Below, piece by piece: positions 9,857 to 32,226 of a stretch of 64,000 bases of DNA. Made by a program: the position numbers and the translations under genes. The notes beneath the pieces are model-generated. The model did no database searches. It had not been told where the DNA came from and saw only the letters and a program-made list of their open reading frames with translations. The DNA comes from Cardiobacteriaceae bacterium TAE3-ERU3 (GTDB lineage: Bacteria > Pseudomonadota > Gammaproteobacteria > Cardiobacteriales > Cardiobacteriaceae), in assembly GCA_019218315.1 (NCBI GenBank), contig JAHUUI010000005.1, forward strand, positions 62,001 to 126,000, written 5' to 3'. Position 1 is the first letter of the stretch; each line of letters begins with the position of its first letter.

Positions 9857-11951
9857 GTTGGCTTGCCGCCTGTTCTGCTTGAACAGCAGTGATGGCGATC
9901 GTATAAAGAATATCGTCGATCAGCGCACCACGCGACAAGTCATTAACCGGCTTACGCATACCTTGCAATACCGGCCCCATCGAAATGGCATTCGCTGAAC
10001 GCTGCACTGCTTTATAAGTGGTATTACCGGTATTGAGATCCGGGAAGATAAATACCGTAGCCTGACCAGCAACCGGACTATTCGGCGCTTTGCTCTTGCC
10101 GACTGAGGCAATAGCAGCCGCATCGTATTGCAATGGACCATCGACGACGATATCAGGGCGCAGTTCGCGTACTTTATCCGTTGCGGCTTTAACCTTTTCA
10201 ACGTCTTCGCCAGTGCCGGATGTACCTGTTGAGTAACTGATCATCGCAACTTTTGGCTCGACGCCAAATGCTTTGGCCGTGTCATGCGACTGAATGGCAA
10301 TCTGGGCCAATTCATCTGCATTCGGGTTCGGCACAATCGCGCAGTCCCCGTAGACCAATACTTGCTCTGGCAAGCACATAAAGAATACTGATGACACCAT
10401 CTTCGCACCTGGGGCGGTTTTAATGATTTGCAGCGGTGGGCGCATGGTATTGGCCGTAGTGTGTACTGCACCAGAGACCAAACCATCAACTTCACCAGCT
10501 TCAAGCATCATCGTGCCAAGCATCACGTTATCTTCAAGCTGAGTACGGGCAAGAGTTTCATTCATGCCTTTGTGCTTACGCAACTCAACCAAGCGCGCAA
10601 TATAACGCTCACGCACCACATCAGGATCAATGATTGAAATATTATCGCCGAGCGTCACGCCTTGTTGTGCGGCAATTTCATTGACGCTATCAGGATTGGC
10701 TAGCAACACACATTTTGCCATACCACGCTCTGCACACTGGCTGGCTGCAACCACCGTACGCGGCTCATCACCTTCTGGCAGCACAATCGTCTTTTGCGCA
10801 GCAATCGCACGTTGCACAATGCTGTAGCGGAATGCAGCCGGAGAAATACTCGCTTTACGCACCTCTGTAAGGTAGGCATCAACCCAGTCGCTCTTGATAT
10901 GCTCAGCAAAAAATTCTTTAGTGTGCTGAATGCGGCGTGCATCATCATCCGGGATATGCTTATTGAAGTTATCCATGGCACGCGCAGTCTTCCAGCTGTT
11001 GGTATTAATCTGCAACACTGGCAACTTTGACTCTTCAAGCAATGGACGACACAGCTTCATGACGTTTTCAGATGGGCTGGTAGAACCCGTCAAAATCAAA
11101 CAGCCAAGATTATTACCCGACTTGGCTGAAATCGTGACTGCCATCAGCGTATCATCACGATCGCCCGGCGAGAAAATACAGTAGTTCGGCTTCAAGAACT
11201 CAACCGCATTGGGCACTGTACGCGCAAACATGACGTAATCATGCACACGGCGAGTTTCCAGCTCCCCTTCAAACAATACTTTGGCATTAAAGTGGCGCTT
11301 CAGATCCAACACTCGTGGCGCAGAAATATCAGCACGATTAGGAATCAAACCAAGCAGTTTAAAACGCTGACCAAAACGGCGCGAGCTGAAAATAGTATCG
11401 CCATCAAGGCAACCTTCCCCACCAACGTGATTGACAATCGCGCCGAGCAGATTACCTTTTTCATAACCACCAAACCCTTCAACTGAAAAATCGAGGCGGT
11501 TTTCAAGGCGGCTCAAGCTAGGCACTTTTGCACTGGTGACGAACACCACATCCGAACCCAATGAGCGGGCAATTTTCTGGTTAATCCCATTAGCGTAAGG
11601 TACGTTTGGCGTTTCGAGCAAACCTTCCATGACGATGATATCGGCATCGCCCTTCGCAGCCTCGAATTGCTGGATAACGTTTTCCATCAACTCATCAACA
11701 TTATGCGTATCGAGTGCTTTCTGCACCACTTCCGGGCGGATAGTCAACGACTCATCCTGCTTGCCGCGGCAATACTTTGCCATCATACGGCTGCTGTTAT
11801 CGACTGTATCACTGTCGCTGTTGTACTGCATCACTGGTTTATGGAAGCCAACTTTCATGCCTTGACGTTCCAGCGCGTGATACAGGCCCAATACTGCTGA
11901 GGTAAGCCCCGCCCCCTGATGGGTAGAGACTACTAAAATTGATTTAGCCAT
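9849..11951 (-). CDS. pta: Phosphate acetyltransferase, long form
   Basis: A 700-residue Pta of the three-domain type found in gammaproteobacteria. It has an N-terminal P-loop-like domain (residues 1-220, starting STHQGAGLTS), a central DRTGG domain, and the C-terminal catalytic phosphotransacetylase domain from about residue 370 with VLPEGDEPR and MISYSTGTSGTGEDVE. It interconverts acetyl-CoA and acetyl phosphate and acts with AckA, whose gene ends only 4 bp upstream. Confidence 0.97.
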   Translation of the reverse strand: MAKSILVVSTHQGAGLTSAVLGLYHALERQGMKVGFHKPVMQYNSDSDTVDNSSRMMAKYCRGKQDESLTIRPEVVQKALDTHNVDELMENVIQQFEAAKGDADIIVMEGLLETPNVPYANGINQKIARSLGSDVVFVTSAKVPSLSRLENRLDFSVEGFGGYEKGNLLGAIVNHVGGEGCLDGDTIFSSRRFGQRFKLLGLIPNRADISAPRVLDLKRHFNAKVLFEGELETRRVHDYVMFARTVPNAVEFLKPNYCIFSPGDRDDTLMAVTISAKSGNNLGCLILTGSTSPSENVMKLCRPLLEESKLPVLQINTNSWKTARAMDNFNKHIPDDDARRIQHTKEFFAEHIKSDWVDAYLTEVRKASISPAAFRYSIVQRAIAAQKTIVLPEGDEPRTVVAASQCAERGMAKCVLLANPDSVNEIAAQQGVTLGDNISIIDPDVVRERYIARLVELRKHKGMNETLARTQLEDNVMLGTMMLEAGEVDGLVSGAVHTTANTMRPPLQIIKTAPGAKMVSSVFFMCLPEQVLVYGDCAIVPNPNADELAQIAIQSHDTAKAFGVEPKVAMISYSTGTSGTGEDVEKVKAATDKVRELRPDIVVDGPLQYDAAAIASVGKSKAPNSPVAGQATVFIFPDLNTGNTTYKAVQRSANAISMGPVLQGMRKPVNDLSRGALIDDILYTIAITAVQAEQAASQRG

Positions 11952-13206: not shown

Positions 13207-13280
13207 AAAAAAAAGCCCCAAGCAAACGCTTGAGGCAAATCATCATGAGGCAATGTGACAGATTGCTTTCGCGCTCCATC
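13207..13280 (-). ncRNA. Predicted RyhB-like iron-responsive small RNA
   Basis: This region has the parts of a small-RNA gene. A promoter with an overlapping Fur-like box (13284-13315) precedes a predicted start near 13280. The RNA is about 74 nt and ends in a stem (13215-13223 with 13228-13236, one mismatch, 4-nt loop) followed by eight U (A run 13207-13214). The body contains GAAAGCA, then TCACATTGC followed by CTC. These are in the same order and near-identical to the conserved pairing core of E. coli RyhB. Two TTGCCTCA modules (complement of 13246-13253 and within 13229-13239) match the sdhC Shine-Dalgarno region. There is no ORF. The alternative reading is a plain 3' UTR terminator of the oxidoreductase gene upstream, but that would not explain the promoter, Fur box or RyhB-like core. 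Confidence 0.68.
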
Positions 13281-13283
13281 AAG

Positions 13284-13315
13284 CGTAATGATAACGATTC
13301 TTAAAAATATTGCAA
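13284..13315 (-). promoter_or_regulatory. Promoter with overlapping Fur-box-like site for the small RNA
   Basis: On the minus strand the -35 box is TTGCAA (13310-13315) and the -10 box is TATCAT (13288-13293), spaced 16 bp. The 19 bp at 13284-13302 match the E. coli Fur consensus at 13 of 19 positions when read on the plus strand, and they cover the -10 box. Repression by Fe-Fur is therefore expected. The match count was made by eye. Confidence 0.55.
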
Positions 13316-22687: not shown

Positions 22688-22698
22688 CTTGAGGCAAA
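22688..22698 (+). promoter_or_regulatory. sdhC Shine-Dalgarno region, predicted small-RNA target
   Basis: CTTGAGGCAAA contains the GAGG ribosome-binding site 8 bp before the sdhC ATG. The same 11 bases occur on the plus strand at 13229-13239, so the minus-strand small RNA predicted there is perfectly complementary. A second copy of its inner 8 bases, TGAGGCAA, lies at 13246-13253 in a part of the RNA that should be unpaired. Pairing would occlude the ribosome-binding site. Confidence 0.6.
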
Positions 22699-22701
22699 AC
22701 A

Positions 22702-23082
22702 ATGCAACAACAAAATCGACCCTTATCGCCGCATTTGCAGGTTTATCGCCCGCAATTTACGTCTATTATGTCCATATTGCACCGCGCCACTGGTGTTACA
22801 AGCGCAATGGGATTGCTGCTGATTACATGGTGGTTAGCGATGACCGCGACAGGCAGCGACAGCTGGCACACAGCCAATAGCTTATTCGCCAACCCATTTG
22901 TCGTACTCATTTTATTCTTTTGGTCTGGCGCACTGATTTATCACCTCTGTAATGGTATTCGCCACCTAACATGGGATACAGGCAAATGCCTAACCATCGC
23001 AGAGTCGCGCAAAACAGCACGCATCGTCCAAATCGCAACTGTCATTATTACAGTCGCGCTGTGGATTGGCATTTGGTGGTAA
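22702..23082 (+). CDS. sdhC: Succinate dehydrogenase cytochrome b556 subunit
   Basis: A 126-residue membrane anchor with three helices. The quinone-site segment SILHRATG (Ser24, Arg28) and the heme-ligand region YHLCNGIRHLTWD (His81 as ligand) are both present. With SdhD it binds heme b and ubiquinone and fixes SdhAB to the inner membrane. GAGG lies 8 bp before the ATG and coincides with the predicted small-RNA pairing site. sdhD begins 9 bp after the stop. Confidence 0.96.
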   Translation: MQQQNRPLSPHLQVYRPQFTSIMSILHRATGVTSAMGLLLITWWLAMTATGSDSWHTANSLFANPFVVLILFFWSGALIYHLCNGIRHLTWDTGKCLTIAESRKTARIVQIATVIITVALWIGIWW

Positions 23083-23091
23083 GGAGCAGAC

Positions 23092-23475
23092 ATGAGCATA
23101 CTTAACGAACTCAAAAAAGCCAAAGGCCTTGGTTCTGGCCATAACGGAACGCACCACTTTATCGTCCAGCGCGTCAGTGCCGTTATCCTCATCCCGCTGG
23201 TACTTTATTTCCTCTACAGCATCGTACGTATCACCGGCGCACACGACTATCAAGCCGTACAAGCGTGGTTTGCCAACCCGATCAACAGTGCTTTAGTACT
23301 CGCATTCATGATTACCGGCTTTTACCACGCTGCTCTCGGCGTACAAGTCGTCATCGAAGACTACGTACATCACGAACAAATCAAATGGCTTTCGCTTATT
23401 GCCGTACGCGGCGTCTGCCTGATCGGCGCACTCATTGCCATTACCTCTATTCTGAGCCTCGGCCTCGCCCGATAA
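23092..23475 (+). CDS. sdhD: Succinate dehydrogenase membrane anchor subunit
   Basis: A 127-residue three-helix anchor. It carries HHFIVQRVSAVILIP at the start of helix 1 and FYHAALGVQVVIEDY in helix 2, where the Asp-Tyr pair matches the quinone-site residues known from E. coli. It pairs with SdhC around heme b. A GGAG site precedes the ATG, and sdhA follows 12 bp after the stop. Confidence 0.94.
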   Translation: MSILNELKKAKGLGSGHNGTHHFIVQRVSAVILIPLVLYFLYSIVRITGAHDYQAVQAWFANPINSALVLAFMITGFYHAALGVQVVIEDYVHHEQIKWLSLIAVRGVCLIGALIAITSILSLGLAR

Positions 23476-23487
23476 AAGGACAGCAAC

Positions 23488-25278
23488 ATGACACAACCAT
23501 ACAAAATTCATCACCACACTTATGACGTCGTCGTGGTCGGCGCTGGCGGCGCTGGATTGCGCGCCACCTTCGGCATGGCACTTGAAGGCCTGAAAACAGC
23601 CTGCGTCACCAAAGTATTCCCTACTCGTTCACACACCGTTGCAGCACAGGGCGGTATCGCAGCCGCACTCGGCAATATGGGTGAAGACAAATGGCAATGG
23701 CACTTCTACGACACAGTTAAAGGCTCAGACTGGCTCGGCGACCAAGACGCCATCGCCTATATGTGCCGTGAGGCAATTCCAGCCATTATCGAGCTTGAGC
23801 ACTATGGCGTACCGTTCTCACGTAACGACAAAGGCCAGATTTACCAGCGTCCATTTGGTGGCATGACCACGCACTTCGGCGAAGGCCAAGCTGAGCGTAC
23901 CTGCGCTGCTGCTGACCGTACCGGTCACGCCATTTTGCACACCCTGTATCAGCAAGCACTGCGTAACCACGCTGAGTTCTACATTGAATACTTCGCAACT
24001 GACCTGCTTATGGGTGAAGACGGCGATTGCCGTGGCGTCCTCGCGCTCGACCTTTCATCAGGTGAACTACACGTCTTCAACGCACAAATGGTCGTTCTCG
24101 CGACCGGCGGTTATGGTCGTGCATGGCAGTCTTGTACTTCTGCACATACCTGTACCGGTGACGGCAACGGCATGGTGCTGCGCGCAGGTCTCGCTCTGCA
24201 AGACGTTGAATTTACCCAATTCCACCCAACCGGCATCTACGGCTCAGGCTGCTTGATGACAGAAGGTTGCCGTGGTGAAGGTGGCTACCTGACCAACAGT
24301 GAAGGTGAGCGTTTCATGGAACGCTACGCACCAAACGCCAAAGACCTCGCCTCGCGCGACGTCGTATCCCGTGCAGAAGCAATCGAAATCCGTGAAGGAC
24401 GTGGCGTTGGCAAGCACAAAGACCACATCTACTTACACCTTGAGCACCTCGGTGCAGACGTCATCAATAAGCGCCTGCCAGGTATCGCTGAAACAGCGCG
24501 CATTTTTGCCGGCGTTGACGTCACCAAAGAGCCAAGCCCAATTCTGCCTACAGTTCACTACAACATGGGCGGCATCCCGACTAACTATCACGGCGAAGTC
24601 GTACAGCTCAAAGATGGCGACCCGGATTACGTCGTGCCTGGTTTGATGGCAATTGGTGAAGCTGGTTGTGTATCCGTACACGGCGCAAACCGCCTTGGCT
24701 CTAACTCACTGCTTGACCTCGTCGTCTTTGGTCGCGCCGCTGCGCACCGTGCTCGCGATATTATCAAGCCAAACAGCAAGCCAGCTCCAATTCCAGCTGC
24801 AGAACTTGAAAAAGCCCTTGGCCGCTTTGCTCAAATTCATAACGCAAATGGCGACATCGGCACTGCGGAAATTCGCGACAGAATGCAACGCGATATGCAG
24901 GCACACGCAGCAGTATTCCGCACCAGTGAAAGCCTCATCGAAGGCGTTGATAAAATCGACAAAATTTATCACAGCTTTGAGAACGTCCGCATCAAAGACA
25001 AGAGCCTCAACTGGAATACTGATCTCGTCGAAACCTTCGAGCTTGCCAACCTGCTCGCCTGTGCGCAAGTTTCTATCGTTGCGGCTGAAAACCGCAAGGA
25101 AAGCCGCGGTGGTCACGCACACGAGGACTATCCGGATCGCGATGACAAGAACTGGATGAAACACACACTCACGTGGCTCGACGAAGATGGCAAAGTAACC
25201 ATCGACTACCGCCCTGTCCACGATTTCACCGGCACCGATGAAGTCGAATACGTCAAGCCGAAAAAACGCGTGTACTAA
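23488..25278 (+). CDS. sdhA: Succinate dehydrogenase flavoprotein subunit
   Basis: A 596-residue subunit that oxidises succinate to fumarate with covalently bound FAD. The dinucleotide-binding motif [15 protein letters not shown] and the flavin-linked histidine in [11 protein letters not shown] are visible, as are [21 protein letters not shown] and the C-terminal [12 protein letters not shown]. Flavin attachment is normally assisted by SdhE (32227) and later steps by SDHAF4; both factors are encoded in this window. Confidence 0.98.
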
Positions 25279-25292
25279 GGAGCAACATCATC

Positions 25293-26072
25293 ATGGCAGA
25301 ATTTAAACTCCCAGCCAATTCCACAATAAAAAAAGGCAAACACTACCCAGCCCCAGCCGGTGCGACCAACGTCAAGACATTCAAAATCTACCGTTGGGAC
25401 CCGGGTGATGGCGAAAACCCACGTACCGACACCTATGAAATCGATCTAGATGATTGTGGGCCAATGGTGCTTGATGCACTGATTAAAATCAAAAATGAAA
25501 TTGACAGCACCCTGACCTTCCGTCGCTCTTGCCGTGAAGGCATCTGCGGTTCGTGCGCAATGAACATTGACGGCACCAACACGCTTGCGTGCACCAAGGC
25601 CATTGATGACGTTAAAAAAGGCGTCAACATCTACCCATTGCCGCACATGCATATCGTCAAAGACCTCGTGCCTGACCTGACCCACTTCTACGCCCAGCAC
25701 GCCTCAATCAAGCCGTGGTTGCAAACCGAAACCCCGGCACCTGAGCGCGAACGCCTGCAAAGTGAAGAAGAGCGCGCCAAGCTTGACGGACTTTACGAGT
25801 GCATCCTCTGCGCCTGCTGCTCGACTTCGTGCCCAAGCTACTGGTGGAATGGTGACAAATATCTCGGCCCTGCCATCCTACTGCAAGCCAACCGTTGGAT
25901 TCAGGACAGCCGCGATGAAGCGACTGCCGAGCGTCTGGACTTCTTGGAAGACAGCTTCAAGCTCTACCGCTGCCACACCATCATGAACTGTACCAATACT
26001 TGCCCGAAAGGCCTGAACCCGGCAAAAGCCATTGCTGAAATCAAGCAAAAGCTGGTCGAGCGTCAAGTGTAA
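25293..26072 (+). CDS. sdhB: Succinate dehydrogenase iron-sulfur subunit
   Basis: A 259-residue subunit with the three cluster motifs in order. The 2Fe-2S set is [16 protein letters not shown] and its following Cys, the 4Fe-4S set is [16 protein letters not shown], and the 3Fe-4S set is [17 protein letters not shown]. It passes electrons from SdhA to ubiquinone in SdhCD. An AGGAG site precedes the start. The operon ends at a strong hairpin 16 bp after the stop. Confidence 0.98.
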
Positions 26073-27669: not shown

Positions 27670-29136
27670 TTAAAATGTTTTCGTAAATTCGAGGAATACA
27701 TTATTCCCATCGTTGCTATAGAATGGATGATTGCTATCAACCTTCTTATATTGCCATGTCAGGCGTGGTGTCACATCCCAAATATGCCAGTCGCGGTTCC
27801 AAACACTCAAGCTGAGACTATAGTCAGTACTCTTTTGCTTGATGGCAAAGAAATCCATTCCATCATAATATTTCCTACCCAATCCAACAGAGGCTCTCGT
27901 AGAAATACCCTTACCCCACTCTTGGCCCCAGCCAAGACGGCCTCCTATGCGTCGATAAGACTGACTTGGAATGTCATTCTTACGCTTGCTTCCATCAAGG
28001 CCTGCAAAGAAGTATTGACGTGGATTGCGTGCGTAAAGGATCGTATTAGAAAGCAAATAATCGTTACCACTTGAAGCTTTTCTAGCGTCACGATAAATAA
28101 GCTTGGAAGCTTCAAGAGCACCCTGATAACGCAAGTTTGGTGATAACCATTGCGACAGCTCTGTTCTCACCCCTATGCTTTTATTATTGAAGTCGAAACC
28201 ATGATTATCTTCATCTGAATCAACATACCAACGATAGGCAAAGAATGGCGTAACTGACACTTCTGTTATCGCATTGGAATAACCACCACCTATTCCAATA
28301 CGGGTGGATAAATCATTATAGGACTTGTTGTCAAAATAGAGTGACCCATATACGCCCAAATCTATTTTGGCAAACAATCCATTATCAAATTGATAGCGCT
28401 TATCTGCACCGAAATTAAACTCAAGCCCTTTACCACTCTCAGGCTCTTGCAGGGAGCTTACCACCGCACCATTCGGGTAAACGATCTTGGTGCCTTTTTT
28501 AGGAGAATCATTGATATTCTTATCGTAAATATAAGAAGCACCAAAACTGAAGCTCCATTCATTTTGCTTTGAGATCGCTTCTAGAAATTGATCAATTATT
28601 TTATAGTAGGATTCGTTAAGATCCTGATTGCTACGCAGCTTTTCGAGTTCACTTTTTGCTGCTTGAAACTGCCTGTCGTAAAACAAAGCTATCGCCAATT
28701 GCAGGCGAACGCCAGCCTGATCCGGCAAAGCAGAGGTAATCTTGCGGTAAAGAGAAACAGCATCATTGGTCCTCCCTTCCGATAGGGCAATAATCGCTTC
28801 GCCCCAATCAATTAATGAATCATCACGGTTTTCAACTTCATAATACAGCTTCAGCTTTTCTTTTAATCCAGCTGCATCTGAGCGTAAGATCATCTCTGCA
28901 AGTTCTTCTTCCAAAGAAGAAACCGAGGTAGCTGAGAGAGCATCACCATTCTGTAAATCGGGGATAGCAATAGCCTTACTCTGAATATTTCTGGAATCTC
29001 TTTGAATCAAATCCTGATCAGGAACCACAAGCTTTTGATCCCTTTCTAGCGCGGCATCATCACCAAGTTGCTGTGCGTATATAGGTAACGCACAAAAAAC
29101 AGAGATAGGAGCCAGAAAATAAATCGCTTTAAACAT
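27670..29136 (-). CDS. Slam-type surface lipoprotein assembly modifier (TPR plus beta-barrel)
   Basis: A 488-residue outer-membrane protein. A signal peptide (about residues 1-21) is followed by a helical TPR-like region (about 75-185, with QAGVRLQLAIALFYDRQFQAA). A C-terminal barrel of about 300 residues then starts at WSFSFGASYIYDKNINDSP and ends in Phe. This is the layout and length of Slam (DUF560) proteins, which move specific lipoproteins to the cell surface. The barrel-entry motif with DKNINDSP is typical. The upstream gene on the same strand encodes a large lipoprotein with a Slam-client signature, which supports the assignment. Confidence 0.8.
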   Translation of the reverse strand: MFKAIYFLAPISVFCALPIYAQQLGDDAALERDQKLVVPDQDLIQRDSRNIQSKAIAIPDLQNGDALSATSVSSLEEELAEMILRSDAAGLKEKLKLYYEVENRDDSLIDWGEAIIALSEGRTNDAVSLYRKITSALPDQAGVRLQLAIALFYDRQFQAAKSELEKLRSNQDLNESYYKIIDQFLEAISKQNEWSFSFGASYIYDKNINDSPKKGTKIVYPNGAVVSSLQEPESGKGLEFNFGADKRYQFDNGLFAKIDLGVYGSLYFDNKSYNDLSTRIGIGGGYSNAITEVSVTPFFAYRWYVDSDEDNHGFDFNNKSIGVRTELSQWLSPNLRYQGALEASKLIYRDARKASSGNDYLLSNTILYARNPRQYFFAGLDGSKRKNDIPSQSYRRIGGRLGWGQEWGKGISTRASVGLGRKYYDGMDFFAIKQKSTDYSLSLSVWNRDWHIWDVTPRLTWQYKKVDSNHPFYSNDGNNVFLEFTKTF

Positions 29137-29579: not shown

Positions 29580-31421
29580 TTAGTCAAGGTTAGAAACATC
29601 ACCAACGTCAAGGTTGTCTAAGCCTTTGACTGGATCTGCATCGCGCTTAGCACCGAAGACACCGCCCCAGACATCGCCTTTAGCGCCAAACTTCTCTTGC
29701 CATGTGGTAGAGTTGATAGATCCACCTAACTCAGCAGCTTTTTCGCCGAAGAATGAAGCACGAAGGTCAGCTTTGTCTGATTTGTCGTAAATACGAGTAG
29801 CTTCACCCAATACGGTGTTACCGTGAATGTTACCTTCAAATTCAACCAAAGTATCTGTAACACTTGTCAAAGAATCATTCTTCTTCCAAACGTTATAAAT
29901 ATTACCTTTAACGTTGGCATTAGCCAGGTCAACAGTTGCAGTTACGAAGTTACCCAGAGCGTGAGAACCAGCACCTACACCGATTGCTGTAGGAACGTCT
30001 TGCTTGCCTTTGCCACCGTGGTAGCTGTTGTCGATACCGTACATCAGAGCGTGGCCATTATAAACAACCTTACGGTCGCCAAGGTCTTTAGCCAGTTTTT
30101 CCATTTCTTCAACAGTAGTTGCATCAGCACCACGGTAGAAGTAAGTATCAACGGCTTTTTCATCACCTTTTCTCAGGAATGGAGCACGAACATACTGTAC
30201 TTCGCTAGTTTCTTCGTAATCCGCAATTGGATCCAAGTTACCAGTGACACGGCCATACTGTACCAATTCCAAAGTTTGTGGTACTGCAGCCAAGTTTGCT
30301 ACAGCCTTCAAGGTACTTGCTTGTAGTTTTTCAGTAGCATTTTGACCACTAGTGCTAACTTTACCTACATTCGTTCCAGCAACGAAAGTTGTAGCACCTT
30401 TGTAGCTGTTGTAATAGTCAGGCGTACTTTGCGCATCAGTGTTGTAATAACGACCAAAGATGCGAGTAGATGAACGAGAATTCTCTTCAAGACCTTGGAA
30501 TGTCTTCTTCTCGACAGGATTATTGGTAGCATCGTATGATTCTTTTGAATCTTTCAGACCTGGATAGTTAACACCAACCAGACCAATGGCTTCAGGGCCT
30601 TCGGCAGCGCCACTTTTTACTTTCTCCATCGCTTCTTCAGAAGTTGGCACCAAGTCACCAAAGACGTTCTGTTGGCCTAGCCAATTATTATCAAAGCGTA
30701 AAGAAACAAGTCCTAAACCGTAGTTTGGATCATCTTTAATCTTCTTCTCAAGATCTTTCAAGACTTTCTTGTAAGCTTCTGCTTCTTTCAAGATTTCTTT
30801 TTGCTCAATGCTCTTATTTGTCACAGCTTTCAGTTCTGTAATTTGATCATCTAAGTTACCGATAAGAGTGGTCAAATCAGTTTCTGTAACTGGAATGTCT
30901 GCCGCACTAGAACCAGTAGCTTTAGTTTGATCAAGCAGGTTAACGTTGAGATTATTCTGCGTCTGCAGAGACTGGTCACCATTGATATTATCTGCATCTT
31001 CACGAGGTTGACCCAAGTATTGAATTACCTTGATTTTGCCGTCTTTAAGCAAACGTGCACGAACGATGTTTGTGAACTTAGGGTTTTGGCTATCTGCATC
31101 TACACCAAGAATTGAAGTTGCTGAAGTGCTTTCATCCTTGTTAGCAAGACGGTCAAACAGTGACTTTTCATCACGAATGTATTGCAATGTACCTTGGCTA
31201 GGCTCTTTTTTGAAGTTCAGCTTGCCTACTACGCCAGTCTGTGATGGATCAACGATTTCCTGAGAAACTTCACCTGGAGTTTCAGTTTCAGGAATAACAA
31301 CAGGAGTTTCAGGCTTAGGTGCTTGCTTTTCAGGAGTAGTCTGGTCATTGTTGCTGCTGCCGCCACATGCCGCAAGAGAGATTGCAGCAAAAATAGCGAT
31401 AGATAAGTTCGAAAGTTTCAT
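29580..31421 (-). CDS. Large surface lipoprotein, probable Slam client (TbpB/fHbp-like barrel)
   Basis: A 613-residue protein with lipobox LAAC (lipidated Cys19), then a Gly-Ser, Pro-Glu-Thr-rich tether to about residue 60. A charged coiled-coil-like stretch (ELKAVTNKSIEQKEILKEAE region) lies in the N-terminal half. The C terminus has short strands ending in ASFFGEKAAELGGSIN, the signature of the C-terminal 8-stranded barrel in TbpB, factor-H-binding protein and other Slam clients. The start at 31421 was chosen because AGGA lies 8 bp before that ATG. The ligand cannot be told: no TonB-dependent receptor adjoins it. Confidence 0.75.
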   Translation of the reverse strand: MKLSNLSIAIFAAISLAACGGSSNNDQTTPEKQAPKPETPVVIPETETPGEVSQEIVDPSQTGVVGKLNFKKEPSQGTLQYIRDEKSLFDRLANKDESTSATSILGVDADSQNPKFTNIVRARLLKDGKIKVIQYLGQPREDADNINGDQSLQTQNNLNVNLLDQTKATGSSAADIPVTETDLTTLIGNLDDQITELKAVTNKSIEQKEILKEAEAYKKVLKDLEKKIKDDPNYGLGLVSLRFDNNWLGQQNVFGDLVPTSEEAMEKVKSGAAEGPEAIGLVGVNYPGLKDSKESYDATNNPVEKKTFQGLEENSRSSTRIFGRYYNTDAQSTPDYYNSYKGATTFVAGTNVGKVSTSGQNATEKLQASTLKAVANLAAVPQTLELVQYGRVTGNLDPIADYEETSEVQYVRAPFLRKGDEKAVDTYFYRGADATTVEEMEKLAKDLGDRKVVYNGHALMYGIDNSYHGGKGKQDVPTAIGVGAGSHALGNFVTATVDLANANVKGNIYNVWKKNDSLTSVTDTLVEFEGNIHGNTVLGEATRIYDKSDKADLRASFFGEKAAELGGSINSTTWQEKFGAKGDVWGGVFGAKRDADPVKGLDNLDVGDVSNLD

Positions 31422-32226
31422 ATATATGTTCCTATTCAATTGATGAATTCATAGCCATCTTGAATGACTGTCAGTAAGTCTAGCTTAGTTGTCCAGTCTG
31501 TGCAAGTCTTAAACAGGTTTTTTGTGGTTTTTTTACAAAAATCTATAGTTAATTACATTTTGATGTACAGGTTTATTTGACCTGCGGACTTATTATATCA
31601 CCTAAATACGCCAATACTGTCGTTTTTTTGCAACAATTTTTTTGTATCAAAATTGCTACACTTAGGGCACTAAGCTCATCATCCATCTTTTATTAGTTAT
31701 TATTTCTCTTAACTCTTTACTTATAATTCTAATATTATTGTCATTTTGGGAATGAGATTGGTTTCTATAGCTAAATTATCTTTCACATTCTTCCAGCTAA
31801 GCATCTGGATGACGAACGGCAAATCGTAATAGCAAGGCACATAGATTTTACAAATACCATAATCAAGCCCTACATAATATGTTTACAGCGCCGAACTTCT
31901 TCATAGCAATTAGCTATACCACCCTTCTAAAGGCAATAAATAATGCTTTGACATAGACCTTAAATACACAAGCAGAGAACCTAGCACCACCCACACGAGA
32001 ACTACTATATATAGGGACTATCAAATGACATTAACCTAATAAGTCACCCTAACTGTACAAAGACCACATTCGCTCATAAGGTGTCATAACACACCTATTT
32101 AATTAATCTGATTATTCAATGGATAAAAGACTGCAATATCACTGCTCTTCCAATATGTAGACGATACATGCTCCCGGTCAGGGTAAGTACGTTTATAATG
32201 CATTTTCCAATGTATAGGACATCATC
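31422..32226 (+). other. Long AT-rich intergenic region
   Basis: 805 bp between the divergent lipoprotein gene and sdhE, the longest gene-free stretch in the window. It contains many AT tracts (for instance the T runs near 31520-31660). A small hairpin AGGTGT/ACACCT lies at 32079-32096, and a TATAAT at 32194-32199, 27 bp before sdhE, could serve that gene. No ORF, tRNA or repeat was recognised. The low GC relative to flanking genes hints at acquired DNA or a heavily regulated promoter. Confidence 0.6.

Follow-up and report, generated by a model that had tools for sequence, protein, structure and literature searches.

Does the complementarity between a small RNA (sRNA) gene and the ribosome-binding site (RBS) of sdhC reflect regulation of succinate dehydrogenase, and if so, which part of the RNA pairs? 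We investigated this question in a 64,000-nucleotide stretch of the genome of Cardiobacteriaceae bacterium TAE3-ERU3, which we call the window. A sequence-only reading had noted that an 11-nt sequence over the sdhC Shine-Dalgarno (SD) region recurs exactly on the strand opposite the sRNA, and that its inner 8 nt recur in the core of the RNA. Both recurrences are confirmed. The window contains exactly two copies of the 11-mer CTTGAGGCAAA, at 13229 and 22688 (plus strand), and the second (22688-22698) stops 3 nt short of the sdhC ATG (22702). The inner TGAGGCAA is found at 13231, 13246 and 22690, as well as at 10104, 21397 and 23769, and the copy at 13246-13253 lies in a core that is indeed largely unstructured.

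Taken alone, the bare match is not clearly beyond chance. Of 100 shuffles of the window, 4 contain the inner 10-mer TTGAGGCAAA at least twice, and 25 contain at least three one-mismatch matches to the 11-mer, i.e., chance level; the genome as a whole has 127 copies of TGAGGCAA. In the window genome, no more than 8 nt pair at sdhC, and 12 of 103 control leaders reach an equally good duplex energy. The argument therefore depends on what is conserved in relatives.

Anatomy and conservation of the sRNA gene

The elements of the sRNA gene and of its target are listed in Table 1. We denote genomes by numbers, where G000 is the window genome and G001 is its sister species. A search of the DNA revealed a second copy of the sRNA gene in the window genome, at G000:C1:477721-477814; no second copy was detected in the other Cardiobacteriaceae genomes, which have one copy each where the sRNA was found. 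Altogether, the 24-nt core CUGUCACAUUGCCUCAUGAUGAUU is identical in 11 sRNA genes from 10 of 12 Cardiobacteriaceae genomes, while the 5′ part, the terminator stem and the flanks diverge. The sRNA was not found in the two other genomes of the family, namely G005 (complete) and G011 (a draft that is 86% complete).

Table 1. Positions in the window of the sRNA gene, its parts and its proposed target
Feature	Position	Strand	Remarks
Small RNA gene, ~75 nt	13207..13281	-	5′ end approximate, placed by the -10 box; homologues in relatives
Fur-box-like element TTTAAGAATCGTTATCATT, overlapping the -10 box	13287..13305	-	Putative; 14 matches to AATGAGAATNATTATCATT
Promoter-like hexamers TTGCAA / TATCAT	13288..13315	-	Spacer of 16
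5′ hairpin (predicted)	13256..13281	-	CUGUC start of the core falls in the 3′ arm
24-nt core CTGTCACATTGCCTCATGATGATT, seed region	13238..13261	-	Invariant in Cardiobacteriaceae
8-nt seed UUGCCUCA	13246..13253	-	Complementary to the sdhC RBS
11-nt match of the sequence-only reading	13229..13239	-	Mostly terminator 5′ arm; judged coincidental
Intrinsic terminator	13207..13236	-	9-bp stem (13236-13215), then eight T
sRNA target site TGAGGCAA	22690..22697	+	Over the sdhC SD region
sdhC, membrane anchor (cytochrome b) subunit of succinate dehydrogenase	22702..23082	+	PF01127 (Pfam Sdh_cyt)
sdhD, sdhA, sdhB, remainder of the operon	23092..26072	+	Pfam

Every sRNA gene comes with its own Fur-box-like promoter and terminator. 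All 11 promoters have 13-15 matches to AATGAGAATNATTATCATT, a generic consensus; with one promoter counted per genus, the matches sum to 82, whereas none of 2000 shuffles exceeded 67. Folding predicts the 5′ hairpin as the minimum for most homologues, but not for all. Both a free seed and an intrinsic terminator are predicted for the sRNA, as in the class of Fur-controlled, iron-sparing RNAs.

The core appears to be confined to the family. Allowing up to three mismatches, it was not found in 20 other genomes of the order, and in the genomes outside Cardiobacteriaceae of a class-wide sample (369 genomes), the inner 16-mer was matched only with one mismatch, at approximately the rate expected by chance. 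We therefore rejected these class-wide matches as instances of the core. We also dropped a first covariance model, R1, whose poor RNAalifold structure resulted from misalignment of the terminators by MAFFT.

Because the element is located between two minus-strand genes, it could in principle be a cis-acting leader or terminator of the adjoining acetate kinase or molybdopterin oxidoreductase gene, or else a gene for a tiny peptide. We consider this very unlikely, given that the second copy in the same genome is flanked by different genes, that flanks vary between genera, that every copy carries its own promoter-like element and terminator, and that the core is invariant at all positions, with no codon pattern.

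Elsewhere in the window, a Slam-type surface lipoprotein export gene (PF04575) adjoins a gene whose product has a transferrin-binding-protein-B barrel domain (PF01298), at 27670-29136 and 29580-31439 on the minus strand. These genes are a probable pair for the uptake of host iron.

Identity of the pairing region

The sequence-only reading proposed that the RNA has two modules against the same site, while favoring the copy in the core as the seed. We agree only with the latter part. The 11-nt copy corresponds for the most part to the 5′ arm of the terminator, and reads UUUACCCCGAG in the second sRNA copy of G000 and UUUGCCCCAAG in G001, so that the match is lost in both the paralogue and the sister species. 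Opening the terminator for pairing is predicted to cost ~8.4 kcal/mol, leaving a net energy of -3.8 kcal/mol, versus an opening cost of 0.6 and a net energy of -7.2 kcal/mol for the core copy. In the predicted hybrid, moreover, the core is engaged and the terminator remains intact. For these reasons we take the core copy to be the seed. It is highly improbable that the copy in the terminator arm forms a second, functional module for pairing: its 11-nt complementarity is perfect in the window genome, but the frequency of such matches is near chance.

Conservation of the site in sdhC leaders

SdhCDAB is encoded in eight Cardiobacteriaceae genomes (SdhA at 84-100% identity), all of which carry the sRNA. 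AGGCA, which is complementary to the core, is present in all eight sdhC leaders versus 19 of 331 control gene starts in the same genomes, and AGGCAA is present in seven of the eight versus none of the 331. It is this conservation that lifts the match above chance. Fisher tests over all genomes give 8e-14 for AGGCAA and 6e-10 for AGGCA, although related genomes are non-independent observations; with one leader per genus, AGGCAA is found in four of five, and the corresponding values are 1e-8 and 1e-6. The control starts were picked by a simple rule based on open reading frames and SDs, such that some are wrong, but this should not produce the difference. Ranking sdhC by raw duplex energy was abandoned, since in several genomes the good scores of GC-rich control leaders left it uninformative.

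The sdhC leaders read CTTGAGGCAAAACAATG in the window genome, TTCGAGGCAATTATG in G001, GAGAGGCAAAGTGATG in G007, GAGAGGCAATGTGATG in G010 (a 12-nt perfect match to the core), AGAGGCAATCAAATCATG in G006, CATAAGGCAGTGTTTATG in G003, where pairing is kept via one G-U, and TTCAGGCAATATCGGAGACATAACGATG in G002 and G008, where the site lies upstream of the SD. Had relatives with the RNA lost the complementarity, this would have spoken against the proposed target, but no such loss was seen in any genome with sdhC. Since the RNA side never varies, true covariation is not demonstrable; on the target side, the changes are compatible with wobble pairing or shift the pairing. Within the same operon, most sdhD leaders carry ordinary SDs.

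It might seem that GAGGCAA before sdhC is simply an inherited SD variant with no regulatory role, and that an iron-responsive sRNA has other main targets. Indeed, the motif includes the SD-like GAGG, and GGAGGCAA precedes rplI, which is not an iron gene, in both genomes of the genus. In addition, the core is kept in genomes without succinate dehydrogenase: G004, G009, G011 and G005 encode only a relative of SdhA at 42-44%, which is probably fumarate reductase, and G004 and G009 nonetheless retain the core. Other targets must hold the core there, and sdhC is not the sole one. However, an inherited SD variant fits poorly with the absence of AGGCAA from the control leaders and with the sdhC leaders of relatives in the order that have no sRNA, where AGGCA occurs in none of 20 and ordinary SDs are used. 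Moreover, the site is displaced from a separate SD in G002 and G008, and is thus not simply an SD, and the G-U change in G003 retains pairing. We therefore regard this explanation as unlikely, and prefer the reading in which sdhC is a target of the sRNA.

Other candidate targets

We listed occurrences of GAGGCAA followed by ATG within 10 nt in six genomes, and read their contexts in G000, G001 and G004. In G000, genes with this RBS encode the peroxidase KatG (katG), an Fe/Mn superoxide dismutase (sodB), NorB and aconitase (acnA). Those in G001 encode aconitase, SdhB, a flavoprotein of FrdA/SdhA type and a COX1-type (CcoN-like) subunit of the cbb3 oxidase kind, and those in G004 encode NorB, FrdB, CcoP, a cytochrome c and a NapC-type cytochrome. 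Using a preset filter in the three genomes, iron or heme proteins account for 9 of 28 Pfam-recognized genes with the GAGGCAA RBS versus 0 of 38 controls (p 2e-4), where the iron/heme label is our reading of Pfam names. Counting SufB/SufD as iron proteins raises the controls to 2 of 38 (p 5e-3), and when genes rescued by eye are added, iron or heme proteins make up 12 of 39. The site also precedes genes for iron-free proteins, namely recA, secG and, in two genomes, rplI (ribosomal protein L9; G000:C6:145304 and G001:C1:1035402).

Some candidates can be followed through the family. In aconitase leaders, pairing is kept in five genomes through G-U changes or a shifted register, e.g., GAGAGGTAGTATG in G006 and ACATGAGGCTATCATG in G003. 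A search for the exact 10-mer GAGGCAATGT across Cardiobacteriaceae returned mostly matches in coding sequence, and pointed to katG. In G000, two more long stretches that match the core lie ~230 nt before the katG ATG, in addition to the match at the RBS. We rejected sodB as a family-wide target, as its site is present in the window genome only.

Three further observations concern individual loci. The opposite strand of the katG leader at G000:C1:617292-617530 resembles a degenerate copy of the sRNA core. At G004:C1:1199245-1200356, GAGGCAAAAATG stands before a gene whose product is a periplasmic protein for Fe2+ transport (PF10634), which is an odd target for an iron-sparing RNA and could reflect positive regulation or chance. 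Finally, G001:C1:1499874-1499889 is a 16-nt perfect complement of the core and the start of the terminator, and sits in the 3′ region of a ferritin-family gene (Dps-like, PF00210), directly before a terminator. This complement, which was not found at that length in the window genome, is possibly a decoy or a 3′-UTR target.

Proposed mechanism

We propose the following mechanism. The minus-strand gene at 13281-13207 would be transcribed into a trans-acting sRNA of ~75 nt. When iron is plentiful, Fe-Fur would bind and silence its promoter, and iron starvation would release it. The seed ACAUUGCCUCAUGAUGAUU, predicted to be exposed between the 5′ hairpin and the terminator, would pair with the variant RBS GAGGCAA before sdhC, and also before katG, acnA, sodB, norB, frdA/frdB and the genes for cbb3 oxidase subunits and cytochromes c. 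Such pairing would keep ribosomes from loading and probably speed up decay of the mRNA, and scarce iron would thereby be spared. Any role of Hfq, like the repressive direction of the regulation, is part of what we infer from sequence.

We hold it to be quite likely that the RNA is, as this outline has it, a Fur-repressed sRNA induced by iron starvation that lowers the synthesis of iron proteins by pairing over their RBSs. A bolder idea, which we offer tentatively and consider doubtful, is that in Cardiobacteriaceae the mRNAs of iron proteins share GAGGCAA as a dedicated SD variant that is read by one frozen seed, so that the RBS serves as the label of a regulon, with the ferritin 3′-UTR complement in G001 possibly being a decoy through which the RNA is linked to iron stores.

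We take the iron sRNA to be real, probably functional, and seemingly uncatalogued. With it come a 24-nt signature suited to searches, a predicted iron-sparing regulon across three genomes, and an RBS motif simple enough to be tested at once. It also provides a natural contrast, in that genomes bearing the sRNA mark sdhC, while relatives without it do not.

Comparison with known iron sRNAs

No Rfam family covers the sRNA: a scan of the whole window at gathering thresholds gave no match. The RyhB model (RF00057) scores 14.6 bits (E 3.7 on 301 bases) versus a threshold of 55, the PrrF model (RF00444) scores 21.7 bits on both sRNA copies versus a threshold of 90, with most of this score stemming from the Fur-box and terminator ends, and NrrF gave no match at E up to 10. 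Low-threshold matches to SorY, a Betaproteobacteria toxic sRNA, PrrF and RyhB were rejected, as they are below threshold and mostly terminator-driven. In the literature, we found no paper that names both Cardiobacteri- and RyhB, and no published account of an RNA of this kind from Dichelobacter or elsewhere in Cardiobacteriaceae. Two properties of the class, a Fur-box over the promoter (with putative binding) and conserved complementarity to the RBSs of iron-protein genes, are nevertheless both present, in line with the earlier assignment of the RNA as an iron-sparing type that pairs with the sdhC RBS through its core. The RNA is lineage-specific, and its proposed mode of action resembles that of RyhB, NrrF and PrrF, as well as that of BrrF, HrrF and IsrR, which are lineage-specific themselves.

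The sRNA resembles RyhB of Escherichia coli in its Fur-type promoter, length (~75-90 nt), single-stranded core and terminator, and RyhB acts on sdh, sodB and further iron proteins (PMC4148029), as is proposed here. The core matches that of RyhB (UCACAUUGCYUC, from a sequence present in 5374 E. coli genomes) in 11 of 12 letters, which 4 of 2000 shuffled cores (0.2%) equal. This likeness stands out, but could reflect convergence on a shared type of RBS; there is no clear similarity beyond the 12 nt, and here it is the sdhC RBS that the seed reads. PrrF1 and PrrF2 of Pseudomonas share with our sRNA the presence of sibling copies in a genome, a Fur-box promoter and (here, candidate) iron-protein targets (PMC2851614, PMC4211561), but only a single copy was detected in the Cardiobacteriaceae genomes other than the window genome. 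NrrF of Neisseria is a Fur-controlled sRNA with reported action on sdhC/sdhA (PMC4148029).

IsrR (Staphylococcus aureus), FsrA (Bacillus subtilis), BrrF (Burkholderia) and HrrF (Pasteurellaceae) are likewise lineage-specific iron sRNAs. No shared sequence is known between these RNAs and the sRNA of Cardiobacteriaceae. HrrF and NrrF are stable without a need for Hfq, and dependence on Hfq varies in the class (PMC4144887). BrrF-dependent lowering has been reported for acnA, sdhA, sdhC, sodB and katB (PMC7377471). IsrR has C-rich stretches that pair with RBSs, and the site predicted for it in katA is located upstream of the RBS (PMC11257911), which resembles the extra katG sites described above; IsrR differs in using several C-rich regions, where the Cardiobacteriaceae sRNA has one seed.
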